A stretch of DNA of 64,000 nt, from NCBI RefSeq assembly GCF_040958095.1, contig NC_091177.1, forward strand, positions 329,001 to 393,000, read 5' to 3'. The stretch is from Procambarus clarkii. Taxonomy: Eukaryota; Arthropoda; Malacostraca; Decapoda; Cambaridae. Below the pieces are notes generated by a model that worked only from the letters and a program-made list of their open reading frames with translations, made no database searches and was not told where the DNA came from. Each line of letters opens with the position of its first letter. The first letter of the stretch is position 1. Positions 2,977 to 57,655 of the stretch are shown here, piece by piece. The translations under genes were made by a program, and so were the position numbers.

Positions 2977-3029
<53 letters not shown>
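2977..3029. repeat. (AC)n microsatellite
   Basis: About 26 uninterrupted AC units. It directly abuts the 5'-truncated end of the CR1-like LINE starting at 3030. A second (AC)n lies at the 3' end of the same LINE (11620-11680), which suggests the LINE inserted into, or generated, AC repeats. Confidence 0.97.
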
Positions 3030-3031
<2 letters not shown>

Positions 3032-4922
3032 GCTTGATTTGATATTTACCCTAAATGAGTGGGATATAAGAGAAGTTAAGATGGAAGCGCCCTTGGGAAT
3101 GAGTGACTACAGTGTATTGAACTTTGAGTACCTGGTAGAGCTAGGACTTATCTCCCCCAAAAAAGAACTAGGAATCAAAAGGCTGGCATACCGAAAGGGA
3201 AATTATGAACAGATGAGAAGTTTCCTAAGTGAAATACCTTGGGACACAGACCTCAGAGATAAGTCTGTACAGGGTATGATGGACTATGTTACCCAAAAGT
3301 GTCAGGAGGCAGTAAACAGGTTCATCCCGACCCAAAGGGAAAAATCCGAGAAGCAACAGAAGAATCCATGGTATAATAGGGCATGTATGGAAGCGAAGAA
3401 ACTGAACAAAAGGGCGTGGAGGAACTTCCGGAATAACAGAACACCAGAAAGCAGAGAGAGATACCAGGAATGAGTACGTCAGGGTGAGAAGAGAAGCAGA
3501 GAAAAGTTTTGAAAATGATATAGCAAACAAAGCCAAGACCGAACCAAAGCTACTCCATAGTCACATCAGAAGGAAAACAACAGTGAAAGAACAGGTATTG
3601 AAACTTCGAACAGGCGAGGACAGGTATACAGAGAATGACAGAGAGGTGTGTGAAGAACTCAACAAGAGGTTCCAGGAGGTCTTCACAATAGAACAAGGTG
3701 ATGTCACTGTGCTAGGAGAAAGGGAGGTAAACCAGGCGGCCTTGGAAGAGTTCGAAATTACGAGAGAGGAGGTCAAGAGACACCTGCTGGATCTGGATGT
3801 TAGAAAGGCTGGTCCAGATGGGATCTCACCATGGATACTGAAAGAGTGTGCAAAGGCACTTTGCTTGCCACTCTCCATAGTGTATAGTAAGTCACTGGAG
3901 ACGGGAGACCTACCAGAAATATGGAAGACGGCGAATGTGGTCCCAATATACAAAAAGGGCGACAGACAAGAGGCACTGAACTACAGGCCAGTGTCCTTGA
4001 CTTGTATACCATGCAAGGTGATGGAGAAGATCGTGAGAAAAAACCTGGTAACACATCTGGAGAGAAGGGACTTCGTGACAAATCGCCAACATGGGTTCAG
4101 GGAGGGTAAATCTTGCCTTACAGGCTTGATAGAATTCTACGATCAGGTGACAAAGATTAAGCAAGAAAGAGAGGGCTGGGCGGACTGCATTTTCTTGGAC
4201 TGTCGGAAAGCCTTTGACACAGTACCGCATAAGAGGCTGGTACATAAGCTGTAGAGACAGGCACGTGTAGCTGGTAAGGTGTTCCAGTGGATAAGGGAGT
4301 ATCTAAGCAATAGGAAGCAAAGAGTTACGGTGAGGGGTGAGACCTCCGATTGGCGTGAAGTCACCAGTGGAGTCCCACAGGGCTCTGTACTCGGTCCTAT
4401 CTTGTTTCTGATATATGTAAATGATCTCCCAGAGGGTATCGATTCATTTCTCTCAATGTTTGCGGACGATGCTAAATTTATGAGAAGGATTAAAACAGAA
4501 GAGGACTGTTTCAGGCTTCAAGAAGACCTAGACAAGCTGAAGGAATGGTCGAACAAATGGTTGTTAGAGTTTAACCCAACCAAATGTAATGTAATGAAGA
4601 TAGGTGTAGGGAGCAGGAGGCCAGATACAAGGTATCATCTGGGAGAGGAAATTCTTTAGGAGTCAGAGAAGGAAAAAGACTTGGGGGTTGATATCACGCC
4701 AGACCTGTCTCCTGCAGCACATATCAAGCGGATAACATCAGCGGCATATGCCAGGCTGGCCAACATACGAACGGCATTCAGAAACTTGTGTAAAGAATCA
4801 TTCAGAACTTTGTATACCACATATGTCAGGCCAATCCTGGAGTATGCAGCCCCAGCATGGAGTCCATATCTAGTCAAGGATAAGACTAAACTGGAAAAGG
4901 TTCAAAGGTTTGCCACCAGACT
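3030..4922 (+). pseudogene. CR1-like LINE ORF2, 5' half (endonuclease tail and reverse transcriptase), interrupted
   Basis: The frame opens with the C-terminal part of an AP-type endonuclease (LDLIFT followed by the SDYSVL equivalent of the SDH motif), then a linker and a reverse transcriptase. RT landmarks are KAGPDGISPW, NVVPIYKKGD, NYRPVSLT, QHGFREGKSC, FLDCRKAFDTVPH, GVPQGSVLGPILF and the catalytic FADD near 4460-4470, ending at RPILEYAAPAWSP. It is a CR1/L2-type non-LTR ORF2. It is broken by a 1-nt frameshift near 3468-3474 and in-frame TAG codons at 4252-4254 and 4657-4659; the endonuclease N-terminus is missing at the (AC)n boundary. After 4922 an I-clade LINE has inserted, and the reading continues at 11189. 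The superfamily call is strong; CR1 versus L2 is less certain. Confidence 0.9.
4910..4922 (+). repeat. Target-site duplication, left copy
   Basis: TTGCCACCAGACT occurs here and again, identically, at 11176-11188, immediately flanking the inserted I-clade LINE. Both copies lie in the same codon context of the split CR1-like RT frame (FATRL), so removing 4923-11188 restores continuity. A 13-bp duplication fits target-primed reverse transcription by an AP-endonuclease LINE. Confidence 0.93.
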
Positions 4923-5458
4923 CCCCCTCCCCGCTCAGCTCGTTGTCGCCGTCTGGGGGCTTAGTGGGCGGCTGCCGGAGTGTGATGCTCCTTGGGACAG
5001 TCCTCTGTCCTTTTCTAGCCTTGTGCTCCTGCTGCCGTCCTCACCAATTCTGCTGGGCATCTTTTCCTTTTCCTTCTGTTTCGTTTTTCTCCCCCCTCTT
5101 CTCCTATCTGCTTGCCGTTTCCTGCCGACCTTTTGCTCGTTCTGGTTCTTCCCTTGGACTTCTTCTACTTTGACGCCCGGGTGCTTGAGGAGGCATACTC
5201 TTGCACCCGTAGAACTGCAGTACCCGACGTCGAGAGCGAGGGGAACCTTTTATTGTCAATCCCCACTTCGTCACTGAACCCGATCTCGACGGACTGTCGG
5301 TTTCTTAAGGTGGCGTTTGTGGGGCGTATACTCACGACGCACCCCTAGGAGGCCCCGACAAGATCGGCGATAGCTTCTTGTTGGGTGTCCTGCCTCTAAT
5401 TGTGGCTCCATGGTGGGTGTGGGGGCACATTCGTGAGTGAATTCGTAATTTCGTCAAG
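4923..5458 (+). promoter_or_regulatory. 5' UTR / presumed internal promoter of the I-clade LINE
   Basis: This 536-bp C/T-rich leader lies between the target-site duplication and the ORF1 ATG. LINEs of this class normally carry an internal promoter in the 5' UTR; that role is inferred, and I see no TATA box at the start. Short open frames overlap it but have no recognisable domains. Its presence implies that the insertion is not 5'-truncated, or only slightly. Confidence 0.6.
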
Positions 5459-7402
5459 ATGATAACCCCTGTTTCGGCTGCTTCTGGCTTACCTTTTCAG
5501 GCTCGTGGGGTGGGCGACCAAGCCCCCGAGTCGGTCCGTATTGGAAGACCGGGCTCTGTAGCCTCCGCTGCATTGGGCCCCGACCTTGCTCCTCCTTTGG
5601 CCTCTCTGACTCCTTCCCCTGGCTCCCCTCCCTCCTCTGTGGTTGGGTCGAGCCCCAAGCCCCCAGTGGTGACTACCTCGTCCCCTGGCGCGGCTCCTTC
5701 TCTAGTTGTTACTACTGCGCCTTTTAACCCCTCTCTCTCTGGGGGTTCTCACCGCCGTTCTCGTCACGGCCGCCCTCGCTCGATTCCTTCCAGTTCTGCT
5801 ACCTATCAAGCCTTGTTTGGTCCCGCTTCGTGGGCCAAATATTTTGATCTCCTCCCTCTTGATTCTGCGCCTCCTGACGATTTCTCCCTTCATCGACATC
5901 TCGTTGATTCTGTGGATGCCTCCATTACTTTTAACCCCACTCGTCTCGGTACGCGTGTCGTTGCTGCTCCTTCTCAGGATGCTGCTTCCCGCTTGGCTGC
6001 CTTATCCTGCCTTGGCGAGACCCCCGTTCGGGTCTCGAAGAACGTCCAGTTGAATGCCAGTGTTGGCACTATTTTGCTCCCGCCCCATGTTGCGACCGGT
6101 GTTCGGGACCTACGCGACTGCCACGACGATATTCGACATATCCTCGCTGCCCAGGGCCATTCTATTCTCCAGGTGGACACGTTTACTCGTCCCCCTCGTG
6201 GTAGTCGCCGTCAACCTCTCCGGGTTGTGAAGATTACCTTTGATGGTAGGACCCTTCCACCCTCTGTCATTCTTGCTGGTGCCAGGTGCTCTGTCCAGGA
6301 GTACATTCCTTCTCCTCGGCTCTGCAACAAGTGCTGGAGGTTTGGGCATGGTGCCCTCCGCTGCTCCGGGACTGTCTCTCTCTGTCCTTTGTGTGGTGGC
6401 GAAGGTCACTCTAAGTCGGAGTGCGCTTCTCCCCAGGCTCGTTGCCTCAACTGCGGTGAGGCCCATCCTACCTTCTCCCGTGCGTGTGTCCATTACAAGC
6501 TTGAGGCAGCCGTCCTCAACTTGAAGCACCGGGAGCGTTTATCTTTTCCTGAGGCGAGGCGCCAGGTTCGCCGGCTCCCGCCTTATGCTAATATCTCTTA
6601 TGCTCGCGTGTTGCGCTCTTCCTCTCCTCGTCCTTCCCGCCTTCCTCAGACTCACAACCGTTTCCAGGCCTTGGACCCTGATGCGCCCACTGCCCCCTCC
6701 TATGTCCCTTTGGGTTCTCTCCCGAAGGATCCTCCTCCTGGTCCTCTGTCTGGGGTTCCCCTTCCTTCTACCCGGTCTGTCGTGTCTTCTGTGTCTCCTT
6801 CCTCGTCCCCCTCCGATCCTCCTTCCCATCCTCTTCCTCCATCTATCGGCTCTCCCCGCCGCCTGTCGGTGCGGGCGGATGTCCATCGCTCTCCTAACGG
6901 CCGTCGTGTGTGCTCTCGTTCGGCTTCTCCTGTTGAGACACTGGAATCCGTTGCCCGGTACGTAGTTGCTGGGACACCGGTCTCTTTAAGTCAGAAGCGT
7001 AAGCCTGGCTCCTCTCCTTCCTCTTCCCCGGCGGGTAAGAAGGCTTCGCTTTCTTCCTCAGCTCCTCCTTCTGGCTCTGTTGCTCCTTCCACTCCCGTTT
7101 CAGTGCTTGCGCCCCCTGTTCCTGCTATGGAGGTTTCTTTGGCCCCTGCTTCCCTTTCGGTTGCTGCTCTTGCTGGGGTGCGCTCCTCTCTTTCTACTCC
7201 CCCTCTTCCTGCTGCTGTCCTTGACTGCTCCTCTCCGTTGTCTCCTCCTCCTCCTCCTCCTCCTCCTCCTCCTCCTCCTCCGGACCCTGCCCGCCCACCT
7301 CTGATCTGTTCTCCCGTTTCCTTCCCTCCGTCTTTGCTCAGTTTACCCATGCCCCCTAACCCTGACTTTGCTGACCCTGATCCCGACCCTGATATTCTTT
7401 AA
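5459..7402 (+). CDS. I-clade LINE ORF1 (Gag-like nucleic-acid-binding protein, 647 aa)
   Basis: An uninterrupted 647-residue frame with an ATG start. It has a Pro/Ser-rich N-terminus, a central region with an LNASVGTILLPPHV...VVKITFDGR core, then three consecutive zinc knuckles: CNKCWRFGHGALRC from about residue 289, CPLCGGEGHSKSEC from about 309 and CLNCGEAHPTFSRAC from about 329. A long Pro/Ser-rich C-terminal tail follows, including about 12 consecutive prolines encoded by a CTC/CCT run near 7240-7280. In I-type elements ORF1 binds the element RNA and forms the cytoplasmic RNP. No stop or frameshift is visible, so the copy could still be translatable. An ORF1 fragment of the same family lies at 32290-32640. 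Confidence 0.88.
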   Translation: MITPVSAASGLPFQARGVGDQAPESVRIGRPGSVASAALGPDLAPPLASLTPSPGSPPSSVVGSSPKPPVVTTSSPGAAPSLVVTTAPFNPSLSGGSHRRSRHGRPRSIPSSSATYQALFGPASWAKYFDLLPLDSAPPDDFSLHRHLVDSVDASITFNPTRLGTRVVAAPSQDAASRLAALSCLGETPVRVSKNVQLNASVGTILLPPHVATGVRDLRDCHDDIRHILAAQGHSILQVDTFTRPPRGSRRQPLRVVKITFDGRTLPPSVILAGARCSVQEYIPSPRLCNKCWRFGHGALRCSGTVSLCPLCGGEGHSKSECASPQARCLNCGEAHPTFSRACVHYKLEAAVLNLKHRERLSFPEARRQVRRLPPYANISYARVLRSSSPRPSRLPQTHNRFQALDPDAPTAPSYVPLGSLPKDPPPGPLSGVPLPSTRSVVSSVSPSSSPSDPPSHPLPPSIGSPRRLSVRADVHRSPNGRRVCSRSASPVETLESVARYVVAGTPVSLSQKRKPGSSPSSSPAGKKASLSSSAPPSGSVAPSTPVSVLAPPVPAMEVSLAPASLSVAALAGVRSSLSTPPLPAAVLDCSSPLSPPPPPPPPPPPPPDPARPPLICSPVSFPPSLLSLPMPPNPDFADPDPDPDIL

Positions 7403-10400
7403 CGTGCTCTGTTGGTCTTTCGCCTTTGTTTCTTCCTTGTTCTCTGTTTTTGTCCTTTCTCTTCTCGTCGTTGTCCATTCTTCAATGGAACGTTCGAGGT
7501 TATTACGCCAATTTCCTCGAACTCCAACTTCTGGTTTCGCGGTTTTCGCCCCTTTGTGTCTGTCTCCAGGAGCCGATGCTTGGTGCTCGTCCTGGTCGTT
7601 TTCGTGGCTATTCCTTTCTCTCCCCCCCCCCAGCCATTGCTGGGGCTTCTAATTCTTCTGCTCTCTTGATTCGGGCTGATGTTCCCTTTGTTCCTTTACT
7701 TTTTCCTTCGCCTCTCCATTGTTCTGCTGCTCGTGTCTTTGTGGGGAAATGGTACACAGTTTGTTCCATTTATCTCCCCCCGAGTGTCCCGCTCTCTCTT
7801 CCTGATTTGAAACACCTCCTAGACTCCTTGCCGGAGCCTGTGCTCCTGCTGGGTGACTTCAATTGTCGTCATTCTCTTTGGGGTGACGTTCTGACGAATA
7901 CCCGGGGTCGCCTCCTTGAGCCGTTTCTCCTCTCTTCTTCCCTGTCTCTTCTGAATTCTGGTGAGCCCACTCATTTGGACTCTCGAACTCGCACCCTTTC
8001 TTGTCTTGATCTTTCTCTCTGCTCTTCTTCTCTTTACTTAGATTTCACATGGCAGGTTCTTGATGACCTCCATGGAAGTGATCATTTCCCCATCCTTGTT
8101 TCCTTTTTCTCTTTTCGCCCTTCCCTCTCTTTCCCTAGGTGGCAGTTTGCTAAGGCGGACTGGACCCTGTTTTCCCTCAGTGCTACTCTCTCTGACCTCT
8201 CCCTTCTGCCCCTCTCTCGCGCTCTCCTCCTTTTTCATGACACTGTCTTCGACGCTGCCCTCCGCTCTATTCCTCGCTCTTCCTCTCGGGGTCCACGGAA
8301 GTGCGTTCCCTGGTGGAATGCGGACTGTGCTCGGGCTGTCCGCTGTAAGCGTGCAGCCTGGAAGAAGCACCGCCGTAGGCAGACGACTGATTCTTTTCTT
8401 TTCTTTCGGAAAGCGAGTGCGGTGGCCCGTAGGGCCATCCGTACGGCTAAACGTGAATGTTGGGCATCTTATGTCTCGACAATTACGTCCGAAACCCCTC
8501 TGGCCCATATCTGGAAGCGTATCCGCAAGATAGCGGGTAAGTTCGTTCCCGATGTTTCACCGGTCCTTCACCTCCATGATACTCTTGTGGCGGACCCGTT
8601 GCAGGTCGCTTCCGAACTGGGTTCCCACTTTTCTTCTGTTAGCTCTGGTCTTCATCTTCCCCAATCTTTCCTTCTTCGTAAACCTGTCCTTGAGTCTCGT
8701 CCTTTAGATTTCTGCACTCATCTTCAGCTTCCCTATAATGATCCCTTCTCTCTCTCTGAACTTCGTTCTGCCCTGGCCCTCTGCGGTTCTACGGCGGCGG
8801 GCTCCGATGGTATTCATTATGAGATGCTTCGCCATCTCCCTCCGAGCACGTCTCAGTATTTACTGAGTCTGTATAATCGGATCTGGGAGTCGTCGCCAGT
8901 CCCTGAGGACTGGCTCGATGCCGTTGTCCTCCCTGTTCGCAAACCAGGGTCTCTGGGTACTTCCCCTAAGGACTTTCGCCCTATTGCTCTCACAAGTTGT
9001 GTCTGCAAACTCTTTGAACGTATGGTTAACGTTCGTCTGATGTGGTTCCTGGAACACCATCACCTCCTCTCCCCTTCTCAATTTGGTTTCCGCAAGTGCC
9101 GCAGCACGACAGATGTCCTGGCGTCCTTTTTGACCTAGAAAAGGCTTACGACACCACTTGGCGTTATCATATCCTATCTCAACTTCATTCTTTTGGCCTT
9201 CGTGGTCATCTCCCTCTCTTTCTCCGCAGCTTCCTCTCTCGTCGTTCCTTTCGGGTGCGCCTTGGTACCGCTCTCTCTCCCCCTTTTCAGCAATACGAAG
9301 GTGTGCCCCAGGGTAGTGTTCTGAGCACTACTCTTTTTCTGGTTGCCCTCAATGGTCTTCTTTCCTCTCTTCCTTCTGGTGTCTTCTCCGCTCTCTATGT
9401 CGATGATCTTACCCTTTGTTGTCAGGGTGATGATTCGCCTCTCCTTCAACGCCGGCTTCAACTTGCGATTGATGCCGTGTCGTCTTGGGCCACAGGTCAT
9501 GGCTTCAAGTTCTCTACTTCTAAGACTTGTGCCATGACTTTTACGCGGAAACGGGTTGTTCTTCGTCCCTCTTTGTCACTTTATGGTCATCCCCTTGAAT
9601 ACAAAGATTCCGCGAAGCTTTTGGGGTTATTCCTTGACACTCGTTTGTCTTGGTCTCCCCATATCTCTTACCTCCGTGTTGAGTGCTCTAAGTCCCTTAC
9701 CCTCCTTCGGGTCTTGTCCCATACTTCTTGGGGGGCAGATAGGCGCACTCTCCTTGCTTTACATTCCTCTCTCGTCCTGTCTAAGCTCGATTATGGTTGC
9801 CCTGCTTACTCGTCTGCTTCTCCTTCTACTCTTCGCCGTCTTGATGCTTTGCACCATACTGGGTTGCGCCTCAGTTCTGGTGCCTTTCGTTCGACTCCCG
9901 TCCTTAGCTTGTATGTTGACACTGGCTTCCTGTCTCTCCAGGACCGCCGTGATCGCTACTGTCTTCGCTATCTTGCGCGGTCCTTGCAACATCCTTCCTC
10001 TCGTCTCTGTCGTGCTTTAACTTTTACCCCTCCTGCGGTTCCTGTTCCTCTTCACCACCTCCCTCTTTCTGTCCGGTTATCTCGCCTGCAGGATTCTCTT
10101 TCCGTTCGTATTTCTGATGTTTCTCCTCGTGTTGTTCCTTCTTTGCCCCCGTGGAGGGTCCCTCTTCCGCGGTTTTGTACATCCTTGACTCGTATCACTA
10201 AAGCTTTTACCCCTCCTACAGTTCTAAAACGCCTTTTCCTCGAGCACTTTTCTTCTCACTCCCGCTCCGTTTCTGTCTTCACCGATGGGTCTAAGTCAGC
10301 GGACGGTGTTGGCTACTCTGTTGTTTTTCCTGATCGCACTTATATGTGTCGCTTGCCTCCGGAGACTAGCATCTTTACAGCGGAACTTTATGCTATTCTC

Positions 10401-11096
10401 TATGCTCTTCGTCTCCTGCTTTCTCGTTGTCAGTCTTCCTTTGTGGTTGTTGTTGACTCTCGTAGTGCCCTCATGGCTCTCGGGTGCTTTAATCCAGTTC
10501 ATCCGGTAGTTGTCGAGATCCAGCATTGGCTGTTTCTCGTTCACAGTAAATTTAAGTCGGTTGAGTTTTGTTGGGTTCCCAGCCATATTGGCGTGTCTTT
10601 AAATGAGCGTGCGGATGCTGCCGCTAAGGAAGCTGTCCGCTCTTGTCCCATCTCTCGTAAAGGCATTCCGTATTCCGACTTTTACCCGGTTATCCATTCC
10701 TCAGTCCTTACCCGTTGGCAGGCTTCTTGGTTGTCTGTTACTGGTAACAAGCTACGTACTCTTAAATGTTGTGTTTCCTCGTGGCCGTCCTCCTTCCACC
10801 GTAACCGGCGGTGGGAAACAGCTCTAGCGAGGTTGCGTATTGGCCATACTCGCTTAACCCATGGTCACTTGATGGAGCGCCGCCCTGCTCCTTATTGTCC
10901 TAGTTGCATTGTCCCTCTTACGGTCGTGCATGTCCTTCTTGAATGTCCTGACTTCCAGGACGAGCGTGTGTCTTGCTTTCCGACCGCCCCTCGCGGTCAC
11001 CTGTCCCTCGATAGAATTCTTGGTGACTCGGATACTTTTGATATCGTTCGCCTTATGCGTTTTTGTTCTCGTATTGGCATCCTTGGTGATATTTAG
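7393..11096 (+). pseudogene. I-clade LINE ORF2 (endonuclease, RT, RNase H) with one internal lesion
   Basis: Domains in order: AP-like endonuclease (ILQWNVRGYY, CLQEP, LLLGDFNCRHSLWGD, SDHFPI), then reverse transcriptase (AGSDGIHYEML, DFRPIALTSCVCKLFERM, SQFGFRKCRSTTDVL, FDLEKAYDTTW, GVPQGSVLS, catalytic YVDD at about 9396-9407). RNase H follows (FTDGSKSADGVGYS, AELYAILYAL, VDSRSALMAL, WVPSHIGVSLNERAD; all acidic residues present), then a C-terminal CxxC...HVLLEC finger. The frame shifts near 9118-9126, between the GFRKCRSTTDVL and FDLEKAYDTT motifs. About 20 residues normally between these motifs are absent, so an out-of-frame deletion of roughly 60 nt is likely. The ORF2 frame is open from 7393, overlaps the ORF1 stop (7400-7402), and has no ATG before the endonuclease (a TTG lies at 7426). 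Confidence 0.88.
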
Positions 11097-11175
11097 CGCC
11101 CTCTGATTATTTTGCGTATTTGATGGTGCTACATAGCCTTCCCGGTTTGGTGCCTTCTTTTGATAATTAATTAAA

Positions 11176-11188
11176 TTGCCACCAGACT
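11176..11188 (+). repeat. Target-site duplication, right copy
   Basis: Identical 13-mer to 4910-4922. It marks the 3' junction of the I-clade LINE and the point where the CR1-like frame resumes. Confidence 0.93.
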
Positions 11189-11617
11189 AGTACCCGAGCT
11201 GAGAGGTATGAGCTACGAGGAGAGACTACGGGAATTAAACCTCACTTCGCTGGAAGACAGAAGAGTTAGGGGGGACATAATCACCACATTCGATTCTGAA
11301 GGGAATTGATAGGGTAGATAAAGACAGTCTATTTAACACAAGGGGAACACGCACAAGGGGACACAGGTAGAAACTGAGTGCCCAAATGAGCCACAGAGAT
11401 ATTAGAAAGAACTTTTTTAGTGTCAGAGTGGTTGACAAATGGAATGCATTAGAAAGTGATGTGGTGGAGGCTGACTCCATACACAGTTTCAAGTGTAGAT
11501 ATGATAGAGCCCAATAGGCTCAGGAATCTGTACACCTGTTGATTGACGGTTGAGAGGCGGGACCAAAGAGCCAGAGCTCAACCCCCGCAAACACAACTAG
11601 GTGAGTACAACTAGGTG

Positions 11618-11620
<3 letters not shown>
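11189..11620 (+). pseudogene. CR1-like LINE ORF2 C-terminus and 3' UTR (continuation of 3030-4922)
   Basis: After the target-site duplication the frame reads VPELRGMSYEERLRELNL and SLEDRRVRGDIITTF, then decays with frameshifts. FFSVRVVDKWNALESD and DSIHSFKCRYDRAQ mark the typical C-terminal end of CR1/L2 ORF2. The 3' UTR carries GGCGGGACCAAAGAGCCAG and a duplicated AACTAGGTGAGTAC, which runs directly into (AC)n. The same 3' end occurs in inverted orientation at 49698-49866 and diverged at about 12845-12930. The pairing with 3030-4922 is supported by the shared target-site duplication and continuous homology. Confidence 0.85.

Positions 11621-11680
<60 letters not shown>
11620..11680. repeat. 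(AC)n microsatellite at LINE/LINE junction
   Basis: About 30 AC units sit between the 3' end of one CR1-like LINE and the 5'-truncated start of the next. Confidence 0.96.
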
Positions 11681-11682
<2 letters not shown>

Positions 11683-12930
11683 TCTTCCAGTTGCTGGAAG
11701 AAGGCGAATGTCGTACTAATTTTCAAGAAAGGGGATAGGGAGGAGGCACTTAACTACACAACCGTATCACTGACAACCATCCCCTGCAAAATACTTGAAA
11801 GAATATTTAGGCTGAGACTTGTTACACACCTGGAGAACATTAGGTTTGTAAACAAACATCAACATGGGTTCTGGAAATGGAAATCATGCCAAACAGACCT
11901 TTTGGGAATGCTATGATAAAATAACGAGGACATGGCAGGACAGAGAAGATGGACAGACTGCATATTTCTGGACTGCCAAAAAGCCTTTGATACAGTACCA
12001 CACATGAGACTGCTATTCAAACTTGAGAGGCAGGCGGGAGTAAGTGGAAATGCCCTAGCATGGGTAAGGAACTACCTAACAGGAAGGAACCAGAGAGTAA
12101 CGGTAAGGGGCGAGAAGTCGGACTGTCGAACAGTAACGAGTGGGGTACCTTAAGGATGTACCCAAAATTAAAAAGACGAGTTGTGACATGAGGATTGTAG
12201 GATCCTCCAAGAGGACTTGAACAGGTTGCAGAGATGGTTATAGAAATGGCTACTGGAGTTCAACAGGAGCAAATGTAAAGTTATAGAGATGGGATTAGAT
12301 GATAGGAGACCAGAGGGACAGTGCACAATGAAGGGGAACTGCATACCTGTAACGATTCGAGAAAGAGACCTGGGCGTGGACGTAACATCTACTCTAACTC
12401 CTGAGGCACATATAAATAAGATATCGACAGGAGCGTACTCTACACTGGTAAAAGTTAAAACATCATTCAGAAACCTAAGTGACGAGGCATTTAGGGCGCT
12501 TTACACTGCCTACGTGAGGATGTGAAGAGCGCATGAAAGAACTGAACATTATGACACTAGAAAAAAAGAAGGAAGAGGAGGATATGATAGGAACATATAA
12601 AATACTCAGGGGAATTGACAGAGTGGAAATAGACAAAATGTTCACACGGAATACTAACAGAACAAGGAGACATGGGTGGAAGCTGAAAACTCAGACGAGT
12701 CACAGAGATGTTAGGAAGTTTTCTTTTAGCGTGAGAGTAGTGGAAAAATGGAATGCACTTAAGGACCAGGCTGTGGAAGCAAACAATCCTCATAGTTTTA
12801 AAACTAGGTATGATCGAGAAATAGAACATGAGTCATTACAATAAACAAACGATGGCTAGAAAGGCGGGATCCAAGAGTCAATACTCGATCCTGCAGGCAC
12901 TAATAGGCGAGTACAAATAGGTAAGTACAC
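11681..12930 (+). pseudogene. Second CR1-like LINE copy, 5'-truncated and heavily decayed
   Basis: Recognisable RT segments are KANVVLIFKKGDREEALNY, SLTTIPCKILERI, HQHGFWKWKSCQTD, CIFLDCQKAFDTVPH and NYLTGRNQRVTVRGEKSD, then a TAA instead of the Q in the GVPQG motif (about 12148-12153). After that come EDLNRLQRW, ERDLGVDVTSTLTPEAHI and FRNLSDEAFRALYTAYVR. The YADD segment is deleted (near 12160-12190), and another deletion precedes the C-terminal segment (FSFSVRVVEKWNAL, SFKTRYDREIEHE) ending at 12841-12843. The 3' UTR retains AGGCGGGATCCAAGAGTCA and GGCGAGTACAAATAGGTAAGTAC. It is a dead relative of the element at 3030-4922. Confidence 0.85.
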
Positions 12931-13232
12931 ACGCGCGGGCCTTTGTGTGTGGTATACCAGGCCTAACCCCCGGGGCGGCTGACCGCTTCACCCTTCCCTC
13001 ATACTCACGACTTTTGTGTTATATTTTATATTTGCATTTGACGCTTTTTTTCTGGATAATATTTTCTGTTTAAGCAATTATTAATATTGATTATAATTCT
13101 GGTTGTAATAATGTCATAAAATTCAAATAATAATAACAGTAACCCAAATATTATTCAGGTTAATGCTATAAACAACTTATAATTCATTATTAATATTATT
13201 ATTATATTGAGTATTATTCAGCCATAATTCTA
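12931..13232. other. AT-rich spacer, nothing recognised
   Basis: After a short GC-rich start the sequence is AT-rich with many AATAAT and ATTATT words that lead into the AAT microsatellite. No gene or mobile-element signature is visible. Confidence 0.5.
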
Positions 13233-13371: not shown

Positions 13372-13736
13372 ATTCCTGGAGACCTAAGGTGAGTCCTGTT
13401 GACCTAAGGTGACTCCTGGAGACCTAAGGTGACTCCTGGTGACCTAAGGTGAGTCCTGTTGACCTAAGGTGACTCCTGGAGACCTAAGGTGACTCCTGGT
13501 GACCTAAGGTGACTCCTGGTGACCTAAGGTGACTCCTGGAGACCTAAGGTGACTCCTGGAGACCTAAGGTGACTCCTGGAGACCTAAGGTGACTCCTGGA
13601 GACCTAAGGTGACTCCTGGAGACCTAAGGTGACTCCTGGAGACCTAAGGTGACTCCTGGAGACCTAAGGTGACTCCTGGAGACCTAAGGGGACTCCTGGA
13701 GACCTAAGGTGACTCCTGGTGACCTAAGGTGACTCA
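13372..13736. repeat. 20-bp minisatellite (GACCTAAGGTGACTCCTGGA)
   Basis: About 18 head-to-tail copies, mostly identical, with GGTGA versus GGAGA and GAGTCCTGTT variants at the left end. The left-end variants are themselves repeated as a block (13381-13440 and 13441-13500), which suggests amplification of a multi-unit segment. Confidence 0.96.
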
Positions 13737-13790: not shown

Positions 13791-14206
13791 GAGTGACCTC
13801 CAACGGTCCAAGAGTGACCTCCAACGGTCCCACAGTGACCTCCAACGGTCCCACAGTGACCTCCAACGGTCCCACAGTGACCTCCAACGGTCCCACAGTG
13901 ACCTCCAACGGCCCAAGAGTGACCTCCAACGGTCCCACAGTGACCTCCAACGGTCCCACAGTGACCTCCAACGGTCCCACAGTGACCTCCAACGGTCCCA
14001 CAGTGACCTCCAACGGTCCCACAGTGACCTCCAACGGTCCCACAGTGACCTCCAACGGTCCCATAGTGACCTCCAACGGTCCCACAGTGACCTCCAACGG
14101 TACCAGAGTGACCTCCAACGGTCCCACAGTGACCTCCAACGGTACCAGAGTGACCTCGAACGGTACCAGAAAGACCTCCAACGGTCCAAAAATGACCTCC
14201 AAAGGT
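13791..14206. repeat. 21-bp minisatellite (AGTGACCTCCAACGGTCCCAC)
   Basis: About 20 copies of a 21-bp unit. Because 21 is divisible by three and the unit lacks stops, open frames of about 140-170 codons appear on both strands with 7-residue periodicity (for example RSHSDLQ, VTSNGPT). The right-hand copies diverge (TACCAGAG, GAACGGTACC). Strict 21-bp spacing keeps frame, but nothing upstream or downstream looks like a gene. Confidence 0.96.
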
Positions 14207-14380
14207 CCTGAGCAAATTTTTCAGTGTATTTCTATTCATATTCTTCGATTTTGGGAGAAAGTTTCTGGATTAACTCCGCCGCTAAGCGCTTGTTAGCGGT
14301 TGGAGGCTTGAGAATATATCGATCAAGTAATGGTGTTCCGGGCACAAAAATCTTGCATGAAGGCCGATAAGCTATTCCGG

Positions 14381-14799
14381 GCAGGTCATGGGAGGCGAGG
14401 CAGGTCATGGGAGGCGAGGCAGGTCATAGGAGGCAAGGCAGGTCATGGGAGGCTAGGCAGGTCATGGGAGGCGAGGCAGGTCATGGGAGGCGAGGCAGGT
14501 CATCGGAGGCGAGGCAGGTCATGGGAGGCGAGGCAGGTCAATGCGAGGCGAGGCAGGTAAATGCGAGGCGAGGCAGGTAAATGCGAGGCGAGCCAGGTAA
14601 ATGCGAGGCGAGGCAGGTAAATGCGAGGCGAGGCAGGTAAATGCGAGGCGAGGCAAGTAAATGCAAGGCGAGGCAGGTAAATGCGAGGCGAGGCAGGTAA
14701 ATGCGAGGCGAGGCAGGTAAATGCGAGGCGAGGCAGGTAAATGCGAGGCGAGGCAGGTAAATGCGAGGCGAGGCAGGTAAATGCGAGGCGAGGCAGGGA
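14381..14799. repeat. 19/20-bp minisatellite (GGGAGGCGAGGCAGGTCAT / GCGAGGCGAGGCAGGTAAAT)
   Basis: There are two adjoining subarrays. About 8 copies of a 19-bp unit ending in GGTCAT are followed by about 13 copies of a 20-bp unit ending in GGTAAAT. The switch near 14535-14545 changes both sequence and length, as expected when a variant unit is amplified. Confidence 0.95.
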
Positions 14800-15205
14800 A
14801 AAGTGAACTGAGACAAGGAATGAAAATATCCGAGGCCAGATAACATACAGGGACGGAAGTTATCACTAGTACCCTTTGTCTCATTGTAAATAACAAACAT
14901 TAATAACAATAATACACAAAAATCACATTATCGTGATATATTAATGAGAAAATCACAGCTCCTGTGGATTTCCTCAATAACAATAACAACATTCACAGGT
15001 ATTCATACCTGTCGGCCAATTCACAAAAATCCTGGCACCTCAAAACCCCCCAAAAAAGAAGTGGAATTCTAAAAATCAGACGTAGTTTAAGGAATAAAAA
15101 ATTTCTCGTGTCGCATTTTGAGTTGTGGAGCAGCCAAGACCCACATGAAACGCCACAATTCTGTTCGTCTCTCGATAATAGCACCGTGAAGGTGTACCGG
15201 GAGCG
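14800..15205. other. AT-rich spacer, nothing recognised
   Basis: No coding or repeat signature beyond short A-rich runs. It separates the GAGGCGAGGC minisatellite from the TCTTCT-rich array. Confidence 0.45.
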
Positions 15206-15230: not shown

Positions 15231-16283
15231 CTCCCTCTTGTGGCGTGTCTTCTTGTTCTTCTTGTGCTGCTGCGTCTTCTTGTTCTTCTTGTGCTGCTGC
15301 GTCTTCTTCTTGTTCTTCTTGTGCTGCTGCGTCTTCTTGTGCTGTGTCTTCTTCTTGTTCTTCTTGTGCTGCTGCGTCTTCTTCTTGTTCTTCTTGTGCT
15401 GCTGCGTCTTCTTGTGCTGTGTCTTCTTCTTGTTCTTCTTGTGCTGCGTCTTCTTCTTCTTCTTGTGCTGCTGTGTCTTCTTCTTGTTCTTCTTGTGCTG
15501 CGTCTTCTTCTTCTTGTGCTATGTCTTCTTGTTCTTCTTGTGCTATGTCTTCTTCTTGTTCTTCTTGTGCTATGTCTTCTTGTTCTTCTTGTGCTATGTC
15601 TTCTTGTTCTTCTTGTGCTATGTCTTCTTGTTCTTCTTGTGCTATGTCTTCTTGTTCTTCTTGTGCTGTGTCTTCTTGTTCTTCTTGTGCTGCGTCTTCT
15701 TCTTGTTCTTCTTGTGCTGTGTCTTCTTGTTCTTCTTGTGCTGTGTCTTCTTGTTCTTCTTGTGCTGCGTCTTCTTCTTGTTCTTCTTGTGCTGTGTCTT
15801 CTTGTTCTTCTTGTGCTATGTCTTCTTGTTCTTCTTGTGCTGTGTCTTCTTGTTCTTCTTGTGCTGCGTCTTCTTGTTCTTCTTGGGCTATGTCTTCTTG
15901 TTCTCCTTGTGCTGTGTCTTCTTGTTCTTCTTGTGCTATGTCTTCTTGTTCTTCTTGTGCTGCGTCTTCTTCTTGTTCTTCTTGTGCTGTGTCTTCTTGT
16001 TCTTCTTGTGCTATGTCTTCTTGTTCTTCTTGTGCTGCGTCTTCTTCTTGTTCTTCTTGTGCTGCGTCTTCTTCTTGTTCTTCTTGTGCTGCGTCTTCTT
16101 GTTCTTCTTGTGTTGCGTCTTCTTGTTCTTCTTGTGCTATGTCTTCTTGTTCTTCTTGTGCTATGTCTTCTTGTTCTTCTTGTGCGTCTTCTTCTTGTTC
16201 TTCTTGTGCGTCTTCTTCTTGTTCTTCTTGTGCTGTGTCTTCTTGTTCTTCTTGTGCTGCGTCTTCTTGTTCTTCTTGTGCTG
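15231..16283. repeat. TCTTCT-rich coding-like minisatellite (24/27-bp units)
   Basis: Units of the type TCTTCTTGTGCTGTGTCTTCTTGT recur about 40 times. Length variants differ by TTC or GCTG-type 3-nt steps (21, 24, 27 bp), so one minus-strand frame stays open from 16497 to 15076 (473 residues) with an AQEEQED period; two plus-strand frames also stay open. The first residues of the minus frame (FAQHAIFLIKNWNALPRK...) resemble the C-terminal end of a LINE ORF2, so the frame probably begins in LINE debris. Frame-preserving variation is notable, but trinucleotide slippage explains it equally well. I do not call a gene. Confidence 0.9.
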
Positions 16284-16383
16284 CTTCTTTTTTTTTTACT
16301 GCTTTTAACTCTTTGTTGTATTCTTCCACGCATTCCTTTCTCGGAAGGGCATTCCAATTTTTAATGAGAAATATTGCATGCTG

Positions 16384-25277: not shown

Positions 25278-25921
25278 GATTCATCGTCGATAATGGTGAT
25301 TCATCGTCGATAACGGTGATTTATCGTCGATAACGGTGATTCATCATCGATAACGTTGATTCATCGTCGATAACGTTGATTCATCGTCGATAACGTTGAT
25401 TCATCGTCGATAACGTTGATTCATCGTCGATAACGTTGATTCATCGTCGATAACGTTGATTCATCGTCGATAACGTTGATTCATCGTCGATAACGTTGAT
25501 TCATCGTCGATAACGTTGATTCATCGTCGATAACGGTGATTCATCGTCGATAACGTTGATTCATCGTCGATAACGTTGATTCATCGTCGATAACGTTGAT
25601 TCATCGTCGATAACGTTGATTCATCGTCGATAACGGTGATTCATCGTCGATAACGTTGATTCATCGTCGATAACGTTGATTCATCGTCGATAACGTTGAT
25701 TCATCGTCGATAACGTTGATTCATCGTCGATAACGTTGATTCATCGTCGATAACGTTGATTCATCGTCGATAACGTTGATTCATCGTCGATAACGTTGAT
25801 TCATCGTCGATAACGTTGATTCATCGTCGATAACGTTGATTCATCGTCGATAACGTTGATTCATCGTCGATAACGTTGATTCATCGTCGATAACGTTGAT
25901 TCATCGTCGATAACGGTGATT
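25278..25921. repeat. Highly homogeneous 20-bp minisatellite (GATTCATCGTCGATAACGTT)
   Basis: About 32 exact-length 20-bp units. The unit TTCATCGTCGATAACGTTGA is nearly invariant, with AACGGTGA variants near both ends and twice inside. There are no indels in 644 bp, which suggests recent amplification or ongoing homogenisation. Confidence 0.97.
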
Positions 25922-28382: not shown

Positions 28383-30418
28383 AGCACAGCATCAGCCATT
28401 CCTCTTCAATGGACTAGACTGATATGATGCCTGGGGTCACAAGTAAGTTGATAGATTGTTTTATTTGTTTTATAGTTGGATCTTAGCTGGGAGTCGGTAC
28501 CCGACACTTGTACCGTCGTGGCCCTCTGCCAACGCACAGGCAGAAAATGCAACACAATCTTAATTGTGTTGTCAAACACTTAATAAACTCCAGAATTCAA
28601 GAGTTTAAATAAATACCACAAATAAATAAGACGTCGAACGAAAATTGCTGCATATTATATGAATTAAAACAAAATTCTGAAGGTGTTGGGGCTAGACGTT
28701 ACAATTCGGAGCATGGCTAGAGGAGCCTGGCTAGGGGAGTCTGGCTAGGGAAACCTGGCTATGAAAGCCTGGCTAGGGGAACCTGGGTAGAGGAGCCTGA
28801 CCAGATGCAGGCGACCCTGGTTCGAGGTAGGTGAACTTCACACCGCCCTCCGCCCCCGTCACATTATGCTTTGTTTACAGCGGGGGGCTCTTGCCCTAAG
28901 TGCTTCAAGGACCGTTGATTGTTCAGTCGATATGGAGTATCTATAGTCGAAATTAGGAATGTAAAGTGGGGGGGAGGGGAAGGATTTGGGGTGTAGGTAG
29001 GAAAGGGAGGGCAGGCCATGGAAGGCAAGGTGGGCGTGACGACTCGCCAGGATGACCTGCCCACCTGTGACCCATAGCCAAGTGTGTTCTGGGCACTAAG
29101 TTACACGCTCGCTTGCCCCCGCCAGGGCCTCGCTACGGTGTTAAGACATCGGCCGTCTGTTAGTGCTTCTCTTACAGATGGGCCGTTTCGGCTGATGCGT
29201 CTGCTGCTGTTGGTCTTGTTAATGTCTAGGCTGGTGCTTTCTGTTGCAGCTACTGCTGCTGCTTCGTTAGGGACCATTTTCAGATTCTCAATTGATTAAT
29301 TATACGGATTTATTGGTACTGTAACAATCGGGATGTTAAATTAGTATATATGTTTCTCTACTAATATACTTGTGGCTGATAGTCTTAGTTCTTTCTCACG
29401 AATTAACTAATTATATATATAAGTATACAGATGGACATTTCCATTTATATATAAAGTAAATCATGAAAATGCGTTGGTAATACATATTTGTATTATTAAT
29501 AACACATTTAGGTACACCTGCATTTGTGCAGCTGCCCTGGACTATATGAAGGGGGAGCACAGTGTCAAAACACTACCTACGCTGCGCTAAAAGTCCCCAT
29601 CACACAGGATGATTAGTAATACAGGGACATGTGATCAGTAGTCTGCACTGGCAAACTCTGGGTACATTACGAGGATATCATCAAGAACACGAGAATTGAT
29701 AAAATAATTGCAGAGCTCTAGGTACCATTCAGCAAAGCTCACCCGAGGTAGTTTTAGGCTTGCTGGTTAAGATTGACAGATCAAAAAGATGAAATTTCTA
29801 AAAGGGTATTTTTTTCTGCAGACTCGCGACGTGGTTGAGGAGTTGACCCCCGACCCACACGTCTGAGTGACGACGTCTCCGTCCGTCAACTCGTGTAATG
29901 GGAAGAGTGTCGTAGCGACATACAGTTTAAGGTAAGAATGAAAAGAAAAGCAAAAATTAAGAGAATCCAGGAAAATAATAAAGGTTAAGAGCAAGGGAAA
30001 GTAAAAGCAAGAATAGGAATAAGTAAAAGTTAGAAAAATAATAATAATAAAAGGAAAAAAACATACACAACTGCAGAAAGCAAATTTGCAAAGCTAAGCC
30101 AGATCACGTTTAAGTTTTATTCTAACCTCTGTTATTCTTGCCTTTGACCTTGGTACAGTGTCTTTGTAGCATCTTCTAACATTACGATTTTTCAAGCCTA
30201 ATTTAGATTTTTTTCGTTCAAAATTTCAACTACTGTATTTCAAAATTTCGCCAGAGATAGTGTGACGTGCTGATTATGGCTGCAAGTCAAAAGAGGAAAT
30301 ATTGCATAAAATAGTTTTGCATACATTGGTTATTCAAGCAACCGCTCTTGATTCATAGTCATGGGCGTTCTGCAGTAGCTTCTAAAACCCCCCATATTGT
30401 TATGTTATTTCTGGCGGG
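28383..30418. other. Unassigned 2-kb region with one small tandem repeat
   Basis: At 28712-28806 about six copies of a 14-16-bp GCTAGGGGAGCCTG unit occur. The rest shows no gene, RNA or recognisable element. Short frames (60-75 codons) lack motifs. Confidence 0.45.
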
Positions 30419-31507
30419 AAGCCTCTTGTGGCTCCGTGAAGCCTCTTGTGGCTCCGTGAAGCCTCTTGTGGCTCCGTGGAGCCTCTTGTGGCTCCGTGGA
30501 GCCTCTTGTGGCTCCGTGGAGCCCCTTGTGGCTCCGTGAAGCCTTTTGTGGCTCCGTGAAGCCTCTTGTGGCTCCGTGAAGCCTCTTGTTGCTCCGTGAA
30601 GCCTCTTGTGGCTCCGTGAAGCCTCTTGTGGCTCCGTGAAGCCTCTTGTGGCTCCGTGAAGCCTCTTGTGGCTCCGTGAAGTCTCTTGTGGCTCCGTGGA
30701 GCCCCTTGTGCCTCCGTGGAGCCCCTTGTGGCTCCGTGGAGCCCCTTGTGGCTCCGTGGAGCCCCTTGTGGCTCAGTGGAGCCCCTTGTGGCTCCGTGGA
30801 GCCCCTTGTGGCTCCGTGGAGCCCCTTGTGGCTCCGTGGAGCCCCTTGTGGCTCCGTGGAGCCCCTTGTGGCTGCGTGGAGCCCCTTGTGGCTCCGTGGA
30901 GCCCCTTGTGGCTCCGTGAAGCCCCTTGTGGCTCCGTGAAGCCTCTTGTGGCTCCGTGAAGCCCCTTGTGGCTCCGTGAAGCCCCCTTGTGGCTTCGTGG
31001 AGGCCCTTGTGGCTCCGTGAAGCCCCTTGTGGCTCCGTGAAGCCCCTTGTGGCTCCGTGAAGCCCCTTGTGGCTCCGTGAAGCTCCGTGTAGCCCCCTGT
31101 GGCTCCGTGAAGCCCCCTGTGGCTCCGTGAAGCCCCCTGTGGCTCCGTGAAGCCCCCTGTGGCTCCGTGAAGCCCCCTGTGGCTCAGTGAAGCCCCCTGT
31201 GGCTCAGTGAAGCCCCCTGTGGCTCCGTGAAGCCCCCTGTGGCTCCGTGAAGCCCCCTGTGGCTCCGTGAAGCCCCCTGTGGCTCCGTGAAGCTCCCTGT
31301 GGCTCCGTGAAGCCCCTTGTGGCTCCGTGAAGCCCCTTGTGGCTCCGTGAAGCTCCTTGTGGCTCCGTGAAGCTCCTTGTGGCTCCGTGAAGCCCCTTGT
31401 GGCTCCGTGAAGCCCCTTGTGGCTCCGTGAAGCCCCTTGTGGCTCCGTGAAGCTCCTTGTGGCTCCGTGAAGCTCCTTGTGGCTCCGTGACGTTCCTTGT
31501 GGCTCCG
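30419..31507. repeat. 20-bp minisatellite (GCCCCTTGTGGCTCCGTGAA)
   Basis: About 54 copies. Unit subtypes cluster in order along the array: GCCTCTTGTGG...GTGAA on the left, GCCCCTTGTGG...GTGGA in the middle, GCCCCCTGTGG...GTGAA near 31090-31290, and GCTCCTTGTGG on the right. A 13-nt irregular join lies at 31081-31093. A 20-bp unit cycles through all frames every 60 bp. The minus strand lacks stops (373-codon frame), an artefact of composition. Confidence 0.96.
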
Positions 31508-32654: not shown

Positions 32655-35600
32655 TCATACCCATCCTGTGGGGTTGTAGCGGACCCCACAGACGTCCTGT
32701 GGGGTGGTAGTGGACCCCACACCCGTCCTGTGGGGTGGTAGTGGACCCCACACCCGTCCTGTTGGGTGGTAGTGGACTCCACACACATCCTGTGGGGTGG
32801 TAGTGGACCCCACACCCATCCTGTAGGTCGGTACCGAACCGCACACCCATCCTGTGGGGCGGTAGCGGACCCCACACCCATCCTCCTGTGGGACGGTAGC
32901 GGACCCCACACCCATCAAGTGAGGTGGTAGCGGACCCCACACCCATACTGTGGGGTGGTAGCGGACCCCACACCCATCCTGTGGGGTGGTAGCGGACCCC
33001 ACACCCATCCTTGGGGTGGTAGCAGACCCCACACCCATCCTGTGGGGCTGTAGCGGACCCTACACCCATCATGTGGGGCGGTAGCGGACCCCACACCCAT
33101 CCTGCGGGGTGGTAGAGGACCCCACACTCATCCTGCGGGGTGATAGCGGAACCCACACCCGTCCTGCAGGGTGGTAGCGGACTCCACACCCATCCTGCGG
33201 GTTGGTAGCAGACCCCACACACATCCTGCGGGTTGGTAGCGGACCCCACACCCATCCTGCGGGGTGGTAGCGGACCCCACACCCATCCTGCGGGGCGGTA
33301 GCGGACGCACAACCACCTTTTAGGGTGGTAGCGGACCCCACACCCATCCTGCGGGTTGGTAGCAGACCCCACACCCATCCTGCGGCGTGGTAGCGGACCC
33401 CACACCCATCCTGCGGGGTGGTAGCGGACCCCACACCCATCCTGCGGGGCGCTAGTGGACCCCACACCCATCCTGCGGGGCGCTAGTGGACCCCACACCC
33501 ATCCTCTGGGGGTGGTAGCGAACCCCACACTCATCCTCTGGGGTGGTAGCGGACCCCACACCCATCCTGCGGGGTAGTAGCGGATCCCACACCCATCCTG
33601 CGGGGCGCTAGTGGACCCCACACCCATCCTCTGGGGTGGTACCGGACCCCACACCCATCCTGTGAGGCAGTAGCGGACCCCACACCCATCCTCTGGGGTG
33701 GTAGCGAACCCCACACCCATCCTCTGGGGTGGTAGCGGACCCCACACCCATCCTCTGGGGCGGTAGCAGACCCCACACCCATCCTCTGGGGCGGAAGCGG
33801 ACCCCACACCCATCCTCTGGGGTGGTAGCGGACCCCACACCCATCCTGCGGGGTGGTAGCGGACCCCACACCCATCCTGCAGGATGGTAGCAAACCCCAC
33901 ACTCATCCTGCGGGGTGGTAGCGGACCCCACACCCATCCTGCGGGGTGGTAGCGGACCCCACATCTATCCTGCGGGCTGGTAGCAGAATCCACACCCGTC
34001 CAGCGGGGTGGTAGCGGAGCCCACACCCATCCTGAGGGCTGGTAGCAGAACCCACACCCATCCTGCGGGGTGGTAGCGGACCCCACACCCATCCTGCGGG
34101 ATGGTAGCAAACCCCACATCTATCCTGCGGGAAGGTAGCGGAACCCACAGCCATCCTGCATGGTGGTAGCAGACCCCACACCCATCCTGTGGGTTGGTAG
34201 CGGAACCCACACCCATCCTGCGGGGTGGTAGCGGACCCCACACCCATCCTGCGGGGTGGTAGCAGACCCCACACCCATCCTGGAGAGTTTTACCAGACCC
34301 CACACCCATCCTGCGAGGTGGTAGCGGACCCCACACCCATCCTGCGGGGTGGTAGCGGACCCCACGTCTATCCTCCGGGAAGGTAGCGGAACCCACAGCC
34401 ATCCTGCATGGTGGTAGCAGACCCCACACCCATCCTGCGGGGTGGTAGCGGAACCCACACCCATCCTGTGGGGTCTTAGCGGACCCCACACCCATCCTGC
34501 GGGGCGGTAGCAGACCCCACACCCATCCTGTGGGGCGGTAGCGGACCCCACACCCATCCTGTGAGGCGGTAGCGGACCCCACACCCATCCTGTGAGGCGG
34601 TAGCGGACCCCACACCCATCCTCTGGGGTGGTAGAGAACCCCACACCCATCCTGCGGGTTGGTAGCGGCCCCCACACCCATCCTGCGAGTTGGTAGCGGA
34701 CCCCACACCCATCCTGCGGGGCGGTAGCCGACCCCACACCCATCCTGCGGGGCGGTAGCGGACCCCACACCCATCCTGCGGAGTGGAAGCGGACCCCACA
34801 CCCATCCTGCGGGACGGTAGTGGACCCCACACCCATCCAGCTGGGAGGTAGCGGACCCCACACCCATCCTCTGGGGTGGTAGCGGACCCCACACCCATCC
34901 TCTGGGGCGGTAGCTGAACCCACACTCGTCCCCTGGGCTGGTAGCGGACGCCACACCCATCCTCTGGGGCGGTAGCGGACCCCACACCCATCCTCTGGGG
35001 CGGTAGCGGACCCCACACCCATCCTCTGGGGTGGTAGCGGACCCCACACCTATCCTCTGGGGTGGTAGTGGACCCCACACCCATCATGTGGGGCAATAGC
35101 GGACCCTACACCCATCCTGTGGAGCGGTAGCGGACCCCACACCAATCCTGTAGGGGCGGTAGCGGACCCCACACCCATCCTGCGGGGTGGGAGCGGACCC
35201 CACACCCATCCTGCGGGATGGTAGCAAACCGAACATCTATCCTGTGGGCTGGTAGCAGAACCCACACCCGTCCTGCGGGAAGGTAGCGGAACCCACACCC
35301 ATCCTGCGGGGTGGTAGCAGACCCTACACCAATCCTGTGGGTTGGTAGCGGACCCCACACCCATCCTGCAGGGTGGTAGCGGACCCCACACCCATCCTGC
35401 GGGGTGGTGGCAGACCCCACACCCGTCCTGCGGGGTGGTAGCGAACCCCACACCCATCCTGGGGAGTTTTACCGGACCCCACACCCATCCTGCGGGGTGG
35501 TAGCAGACCCCACACCCATCCTGCGGGGTGATAGCGGACCCCACACCCATCCTGTGGGGTGGTAGCGGACCCCACACCCATCCTGCGGGGTGATAGCGGA

Positions 35601-46142: not shown

Positions 46143-46400
46143 GGCTCTCTTTTGAAAAAGTATAAAGGCTCAGCTACAAGTACCTCTGGGAATTTATAAC
46201 ATCTGATGATGTAGATTTGACTAAATGTAAACTCTGTCAGCAGAACTATTCTACAAATCAAGGGACTCTACAAATCAAGGGACCCAGATTGTGGAATGAC
46301 CTTCTCAACCATGTTAAAGACTGTACCTCTCTCAACCAGTTTAAGATAAAAACGAAGCTATACCTAATAAATTCCCTGTAACCTACCTTAACCCTCTAAT
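46143..46400 (+). pseudogene. LINE ORF2 C-terminal scrap (L2-like)
   Basis: GPRLWNDLLNHVKDCTSLNQ then FKIKTKLYLINSL and a stop (46276-46380) is the usual terminal motif of CR1/L2/Jockey-type ORF2. TCTACAAATCAAGGGA is directly duplicated just upstream. The family is distinct from the minus-strand LINE to the left. Confidence 0.6.
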
Positions 46401-46404
46401 GTTA

Positions 46405-49697: not shown

Positions 49698-49866
49698 TAC
49701 TCGCCTAATTGTGCTTGCTGGGGTTGAGCTCTGGCTCTTTAGTTCCACCTCTCAACCGTCAATCAACAGGTGTACAGGTTTCTGAGCCTATTGGGCTCTA
49801 TCATATCTACACTTGAACCTGTGTATGGAGTCAGCCTCCACCACATCACTTACTAATGCATTCCAT
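49698..49866 (-). mobile_element. 3' end of a CR1-like LINE (same family as 11189-11620), minus strand
   Basis: Reverse-complement match to 11455-11620: GCATTAGTAAGTGATGTGGT, AGGCTGACTCCATACACAGG, AGCCCAATAGGCTCAGAAAC, TTGATTGACGGTTGAGAGGT, CCAGAGCTCAACCCCAGCAA, and AATTAGGCGAGTATATG. Only the ORF2 end and 3' UTR are present. Confidence 0.85.
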
Positions 49867-57650: not shown

Positions 57651-57655
57651 TTTTG

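Follow-up and report, generated by a model that had tools for sequence, protein, structure and literature searches.

Nested retrotransposition of an apparently young I-type LINE into a CR1-like LINE, with a 13-nt target-site duplication

Layout of the locus

The window analysed here is a 64-kb stretch of DNA (contig C28:329001-393000) in which two LINE fragments of the same orientation, LINE A and LINE B, follow each other with an (AC)n tract between them, and in which LINE A is split by a third LINE of another type (Table 1).

Table 1. Coordinates of the three LINEs, their coding parts and the adjoining repeats within the window.
Feature	Position	Strand	Basis
(AC)n tract adjoining the 5' truncation point of LINE A	2977..3029	+	repeat scan; missing here in 12/12 sampled copies
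5' part of host LINE A, from the last stretch of the endonuclease to RT; 5' truncation and frame breaks	3030..4922	+	RVT_1 6.3e-13
Left copy of the target-site duplication, TTGCCACCAGACT	4910..4922	+	exact match to 11176-11188
I-type LINE insert, 6253 nt, full length at its 5' end	4923..11175	+	shared 5' end in 24/24 copies; domains
Putative 5' untranslated region of the insert	4923..5458	+	between shared 5' end and first ORF1 ATG
ORF1, open	5459..7402	+	first ATG 5459, stop at 7402
(CTC)n run in ORF1 of the insert	7242..7281	+	length varies between copies
First part of ORF2, with the APE endonuclease and the beginning of RT	7393..9138	+	Pfam
ORF2, second part, in another frame: RT and RNase H	9030..11096	+	Pfam, motifs
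Point of the private 55-nt deletion, frame shift inside RT	9121..9122 (within a base or two)	+	copy comparison
3' terminus of the insert, TTGATAATTA-ATTAAA, whose tail departs from the usual (CTTA)n	11160..11175	+	comparison with 23 copies and 20 further tails
Right copy of the target-site duplication, TTGCCACCAGACT	11176..11188	+	exact match to left copy
3' part of host LINE A, its tail made of about two ACAACTAGGTGAGT units	11189..11623	+	frame resumes; tail repeat 11593-11623
(AC)n tract after the LINE A tail, before LINE B	11621..11681	+	repeat scan
LINE B, second CR1-like fragment, same orientation, related tail ending GTACACACGCG	11682..12935	+	BLAST, tail motif

The host, LINE A, looks like a CR1-like LINE, a label taken from domain order and general resemblance. 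The endonuclease of a host paralog scored only 18 bits, under the Pfam cut-offs, and RNase H gave no match in the three host frames scanned, all of which lie before 11188. The family ends in a tandem repeat: of 20 host 3' ends sampled, 19 carry one or two AACTAGGTGAGTAC-like units, in part altered or accompanied by a partial unit. LINE B is 67% identical to LINE A at the DNA level over 458 columns, with BLAST similarity beginning at 11695, 14 nt past the AC tract. Elsewhere in the window, a 565-codon open frame lies at 46392-48089, and its segment 46713-46829 resembles the end of the host LINE RT (46% over 39 codons).

ORF1 of the insert carries three zinc-knuckle-like Cys-His motifs of the form C-X2-C-X3/4-H-X4/6-C (at 6323, 6383 and 6443 in a motif scan), and has no Pfam match at E<=0.001. 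The first part of ORF2 matches Exo_endo_phos_2 (PF14529; 8.4e-19), Exo_endo_phos (PF03372; 2.6e-13) and, under the curated cut-off of that family, RVT_1 (6.3e-6); the second part matches RVT_1 (6.5e-20) and RNase_H (PF00075; 2.7e-10), with a YVDD motif at 9396 in the RT and an FTDGS motif at 10278 in the RNase H. The domain order recovered by Pfam (APE, RT, RNase H) is of I type, in support of the earlier note's reading of the insert. With APE before RT, RNase H after RT, Cys-His knuckles in ORF1, a short tandem tail and target-site duplications, the element is a two-ORF LINE with the features of the I group; 'I clade' is a provisional name given from domain order and general resemblance. A PDB search with ORF2 returned two weak matches, one to an R2 retrotransposon protein and one to an RT-like protein, and one scan of viral contigs found no ORF2 relatives.

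A 55-nt stretch of the RT that is present in 23/23 other copies compared is missing from the window copy. Because this deletion shifts the RT frame, the window copy is dead for its own movement; the deletion would have arisen during or after insertion. The (CTC)n run of ORF1 (7242-7281), which encodes prolines, sits at the same place in 23 copies and varies in length although the copies are otherwise about 0.2% apart. The window further holds a 12-kb array of a 31/62-bp unit at 32659-44537 that has long open frames on the - strand, and many minisatellite arrays, mostly of 19-26-bp units, at 1-2184, 13374-13735, 13792-14208, 14380-14801, 15236-16289, 25278-25921, 30418-31507 and 63228-64000.

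Target site, ends and kin of the inserted LINE

The sequence TTGCCACCAGACT occurs at 4910 and at 11176 of the + strand and, by string search, at these two places only in the 64-kb window; a whole-window search did not find it on the - strand. Two given places would agree over 13 bases by chance with a probability of about 1.5e-8 (0.25 to the power of 13, calculated by hand). The duplication is exactly 13 nt long, the preceding base being T at the left copy and A at the right one. The inserted unit is made up of the 6253 nt at 4923-11175 together with one duplication copy, at 11176-11188. When 4923-11188 is removed in silico the host reading RFATRLVPELRGMSYEERL is given back, and the join reads RFATRLVPELRGMSYEERLRELNLTSLEDRRVRGD in one frame; a scripted join of 4922 to 11189 gives AGG TTT GCC ACC AGA CTA GTA CCC GAG, that is RFATRLVPE..., again in one frame. 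Both the perfect 13-bp duplication and the restored host frame, claimed beforehand from the letters of the window, are therefore borne out.

The 13-mer is not part of the element's own consensus: other copies are flanked by other sequences, and the 5' flank of the insertion at locus L026 is another copy of the host LINE, in which the 13-mer stands once, uninterrupted, reading GTTCAAAGGTTTGCCACCAGACTAGTACCCGAGCTGAGAGG. It follows that the 13-mer is host sequence and was present once before the insertion. The duplication, the restored frame and the 5' end shared by the other copies support the nested retrotransposition and the order of the two insertions, as first proposed.

The genome from which the window comes (4.03 Gb in 2308 contigs) was searched for copies of the insert, and the 24 compared (the window copy and 23 fetched places) were the best scored of 5293 first-look candidates. 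Such a sample favours complete copies; truncated or older ones are under-represented in it, and the share of truncated copies is not deducible from it. Since L028 and L031 are one insertion in a duplicated segment, the 24 copies represent 23 distinct sites. The 5' end, CCCCCTCC..., falls on the same base in 24/24 copies, with L019 deviating at base 10; one extra base precedes it in three copies (3/22 sites with an exact duplication). At the other end TTGATAATTA is common to all 24 copies and is followed by CTTA repeats in 23 of them and by ATTAAA in the window copy. Thus, of the exact family ends that the earlier note had read from the window, the 5' end holds to the base, while the 3' end does not, the family tail being a variable (CTTA)n and the last bases of the window copy, ATTAAA, being atypical.

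In some copies ATTA precedes (CTTA)n, and a pattern search found ATTA after TTGATAATTA at 166 places genome-wide. The first 20 of these along the contigs, with 13 flanks that differ by eye, continue as CTT in 17 cases, as TTT in 3 and as AAA in none. A separate subfamily marked by the ATTAAA tail is rejected on the absence of AAA among the 20 of 166 tails read, and the window tail is a one-off among these. At L061-L063 (contig C4), an identical downstream flank is found with unequal tails (ATTACTT versus ATTACTTACTT), which indicates that the number of tail repeats shifts after locus duplication.

Exact duplications of 12-15 nt, tail overlap included, flank the element at 22 of the 23 distinct sites, each with a different sequence; L020 is the sole exception. 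Target and tail share 1-5 nt at the nick at 21/22 of these sites. The exception is the window site, with a score of 0, its tail length having been set by hand to ATTAAA: the overlap is 0 if the tail ends in AAA and 2 (TT) if the TT is counted as tail. The window duplication begins with TT, as do several others. Across the 22 sites the mean overlap is 2.86 nt, compared with 0.39 nt at random flank places (0/5000 draws as high) and 1.40 nt when the flanks are shuffled among copies (0/20000 as high). This excess fits a nicked strand that would pair with the tail of the element RNA.

The 24 copies differ from each other by 0.215% substitutions on average (range 0.016-0.398%), and for the window copy, which has 5 private substitutions, the closest relative is 0.08% away. 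In 15/24 copies ORF1 is open and ORF2 runs unbroken for 1249 codons or more, so that the family looks recently active. Full-length copies that are this similar, most with both frames open, point to very recent activity, and individual insertions may still be polymorphic. Older, truncated fragments of the same lineage lie in the window at 57641-59151 (79.5% identical) and 62328-63223 (87.6%), so the lineage has long been present here; the latter runs into the minisatellite beginning at 63228. The host LINE is older than the insert: its own ORF has frame breaks, and it is 97-98% identical to 39 other scored copies.

With the site and its duplication, the empty site in another host copy, the shared 5' end, the domain order, the near-identical kin and the broken RT frame all observed, we put at roughly 0.97 the probability that a pre-existing CR1-like LINE received, by target-primed reverse transcription, the full-length transcript of a young I-type LINE. 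The endonuclease of the element would have nicked the bottom strand immediately 5' of TTGCC, and the freed end ...GGCAA-3' would have annealed to the element RNA at its U-containing 3' end, which is usually a CUUA repeat but in this case presumably something atypical like AUUAAAUU. From there, reverse transcription would have proceeded to the 5' end of the RNA, and a second nick 13 nt downstream would have made the duplication.

The window alone would also be compatible with an insertion into a master copy of the host LINE that was then copied as a composite, making the order of events at this locus only apparent, and one other host copy was read across the site. In that copy, at L026, the site is empty; moreover, the insert is 0.08% from its nearest kin while the host is only 98% identical to its best-scoring kin, and a host transcript that held a second LINE of 6.25 kb, complete with the 3' end of that second LINE, would presumably be a poor substrate, all of which leaves this reading very improbable. 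Even less credible is a join of two LINEs, through assembly chimerism or template switching, around a chance 13-mer repeat. Both LINEs do occur in high copy number in this 4-Gb assembly, but such a join would have to give an exact 13-nt duplication and a restored frame and cut the element at the same 5' base as in 24/24 copies, in a family with site-specific duplications at 22/23 distinct sites.

The nested insertion is real but ordinary in kind, and no function for the host genome is apparent; the insert is a new, very young I-type LINE with the expected marks. As an example of target-primed insertion the nested pair is clean and can be checked, the uninterrupted site being kept in another host copy.

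Nesting as such is nothing special. Three of the 23 distinct sites (the window, L009 and L026) lie in recognisable CR1-like LINEs and one (L028/L031) in an older copy of the element's own lineage; with three probes, and 300 nt of flank for L027, L029 and L030, no convincing LINE was found at the insertion point of the other 19. A preference of the insert for CR1-like LINEs is rejected, with 3/23 distinct sites so placed by the three probes. The flanks of L025 and L029 have weak matches to the 3' region of the host, and at L017 some 45-50 nt of the 3' end of the element lie inverted about 100 nt away. The insertion seen at L028 and L031 (contig C41) occurs twice, about 43.5 kb apart, and the pair may be either a segmental duplication or an assembly duplicate.

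AC tracts beside the host family

The host query gave 40 scored places out of 5569 candidates, of which the 39 others are those 97-98% identical to LINE A of the window. The 5' and 3' edges were fetched for 20 of the 39, comprising every match from base 1 (12 copies), 6 out of 25 with a start at 339-344, and the two with a still later start. In 12/12 sampled base-1 matches the LINE continues upstream of 3030 without an AC run, and therefore the AC tract at 2977-3029 is flank rather than element. The host copy at L026 likewise continues beyond the truncation point of LINE A. Truncation was seen in 4 of the 20 5' windows (L087, L091, L092, L093), each time at or within about 6 nt of an AC tract, and in the remaining 16 LINE sequence continues upstream. 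A relative of LINE A at L002 (L002/L053), for which the upstream stretch was fetched as a test, is truncated at an 84-nt AC tract.

At the 3' side one window (L099) lacks the tail, and L094 and L106 have one common flank. Behind the 19 tails pure AC ranges from 0 to 94 nt: it reaches at least 12 nt in 7 windows, to which L111 adds a long interrupted tract, and measures 6-8 nt in 4 and 0-4 nt in 7. Five of the 19 3' ends (L095, L097, L101, L111, L113) run directly, or no more than about 10 nt past AC, into a same-orientation LINE of the host kind; for L101 the follow-on LINE is a 30-nt match to the LINE's 3' end only.

We tallied 14 truncated 5' junctions, a count that omits L016, L019 and L025 (divergent CR1-like copies with unresolved 5' ends) and the L026 host copy for the same reason. 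Nine lie at AC of at least 10 nt (LINE A and LINE B of the window, the L002 relative, L087, L091, L092, L093 and the LINEs after L097 and L111), and four follow short AC from a preceding tail (the LINEs following L095, L101 and L113, and the second LINE in L002). The remaining one, a copy on the - strand at 49693-49873 of the window (159/170 bases identical), is without AC. Nine of the 13 AC junctions stand behind the tail of another LINE, two do not, and at two an AC-rich tract fills the stretch read. About a dozen G lie between the two LINEs in L002. No AC run of 10 units was found at the L016, L019 and L025 loci.

Among the 284,457 bases sampled, AC/GT runs of at least 10 units account for 270, a share of about 0.2% once the inserted element is set aside (which leaves roughly 133 kb). 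Three of the four such runs stand at the 5' end of a host-kind LINE, one of these three stretches having been chosen because a LINE lies there. The 14-base host tail motif occurs at 95,329 places in the genome (up to two or more per copy) versus 4 for a reversed control. On contig C59, at about 3514345-3527689, five host-LINE copies lie on one strand at 2.9-3.0-kb spacing, as if in a tandem array of LINE sequence.

We give even odds to the reading that the CR1-like host family homes to AC microsatellites, preferentially and not strictly, with head-to-tail rows of one orientation as the result. The end of the host RNA, ...GUGAGUAC(AC), could pair with a nicked GT strand, and a new copy ending in AC would set a fresh target behind itself into which later copies could insert. 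Since the tail of each copy itself ends in AC, such a preference would account for the head-to-tail rows, in which 5'-truncated LINEs of one orientation would accumulate one behind the other with AC in between, as in LINE A - AC - LINE B of the window. Further candidate rows are at L002, at L087 and L093, at L095, L097, L101, L111 and L113, and perhaps among the five copies on C59. Strict AC specificity is excluded by the AC-less copy at 49693-49873 (-) and by the 7/19 3' ends with 0-4 nt of AC (L111 not counted).

That the AC tracts are mere expansions of the LINE tail (GTACAC...), and not preferred targets, seems to us somewhat unlikely. The tail does end in GTAC plus AC, the length of pure AC behind the 19 tails varies as expansion would allow, and 9/13 AC junctions stand behind another LINE's tail; however, no LINE tail lies upstream in 2/13 (LINE A of the window and the L002/L053 relative) in the flanks read (at L091 and L092 an AC-rich tract fills the stretch read), and truncation points within coding sequence at AC are unexplained by tail expansion alone. 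Tail expansion accounts for many of the 3' tracts, but not for AC at 5' truncations that have no LINE tail upstream.

If preferential homing to AC is true, the host family could be one of the chief sources of AC-linked repeat DNA in a genome of 4 Gb, and the spread of a LINE would be tied to the growth of microsatellites, with a simple route to head-to-tail LINE rows. A search of the open-licence literature found no report of AC or microsatellite homing by a CR1-like family; of the host tail strings, TAGGTGAGTACA appeared there only in unrelated work and GGTGAGTACACACACAC was not found.

Relation to known elements

Target-site duplications of I-group LINEs are about 10-15 nt long. Work by Chambeyron in 2002 is said to have found that I-factor RNA needs its tandem UAA repeats for precise initiation of reverse transcription; the tail unit is TAA in the I factor and CTTA in our insert. 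In other respects the insert is like the I factor of Drosophila and I-group LINEs, with three Cys-His motifs in ORF1, the order APE-RT-RNase H in ORF2, a target-site duplication and a short tandem tail. PMC2881922 gives the layout of the I factor as an ORF1 with Cys-His motifs and an ORF2 with APE, RT and RNase H. Among decapods, I-clade LINEs like the insert, compared here by description only, are NLRS/ASDE of the whiteleg shrimp, an I-clade element in which, according to PMC3849965, the RT of NLRS is followed by RNase H, and the families of Penaeus monodon, where PMC3124438 attributes to the I clade 73% of the non-LTR share by length.

The host, for its part, resembles LINEs with a link to AC/TG microsatellites, a link that it too appears to have: Mino, an R1-clade element described in PMC3124438 as inserting into AC repeats, and Togen, described in PMC4640811 as a (TG)n-specific LINE. 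The host differs from both in being CR1-like, in that its tie to AC is not strict, and in that some of its copies lie head to tail with AC between them.
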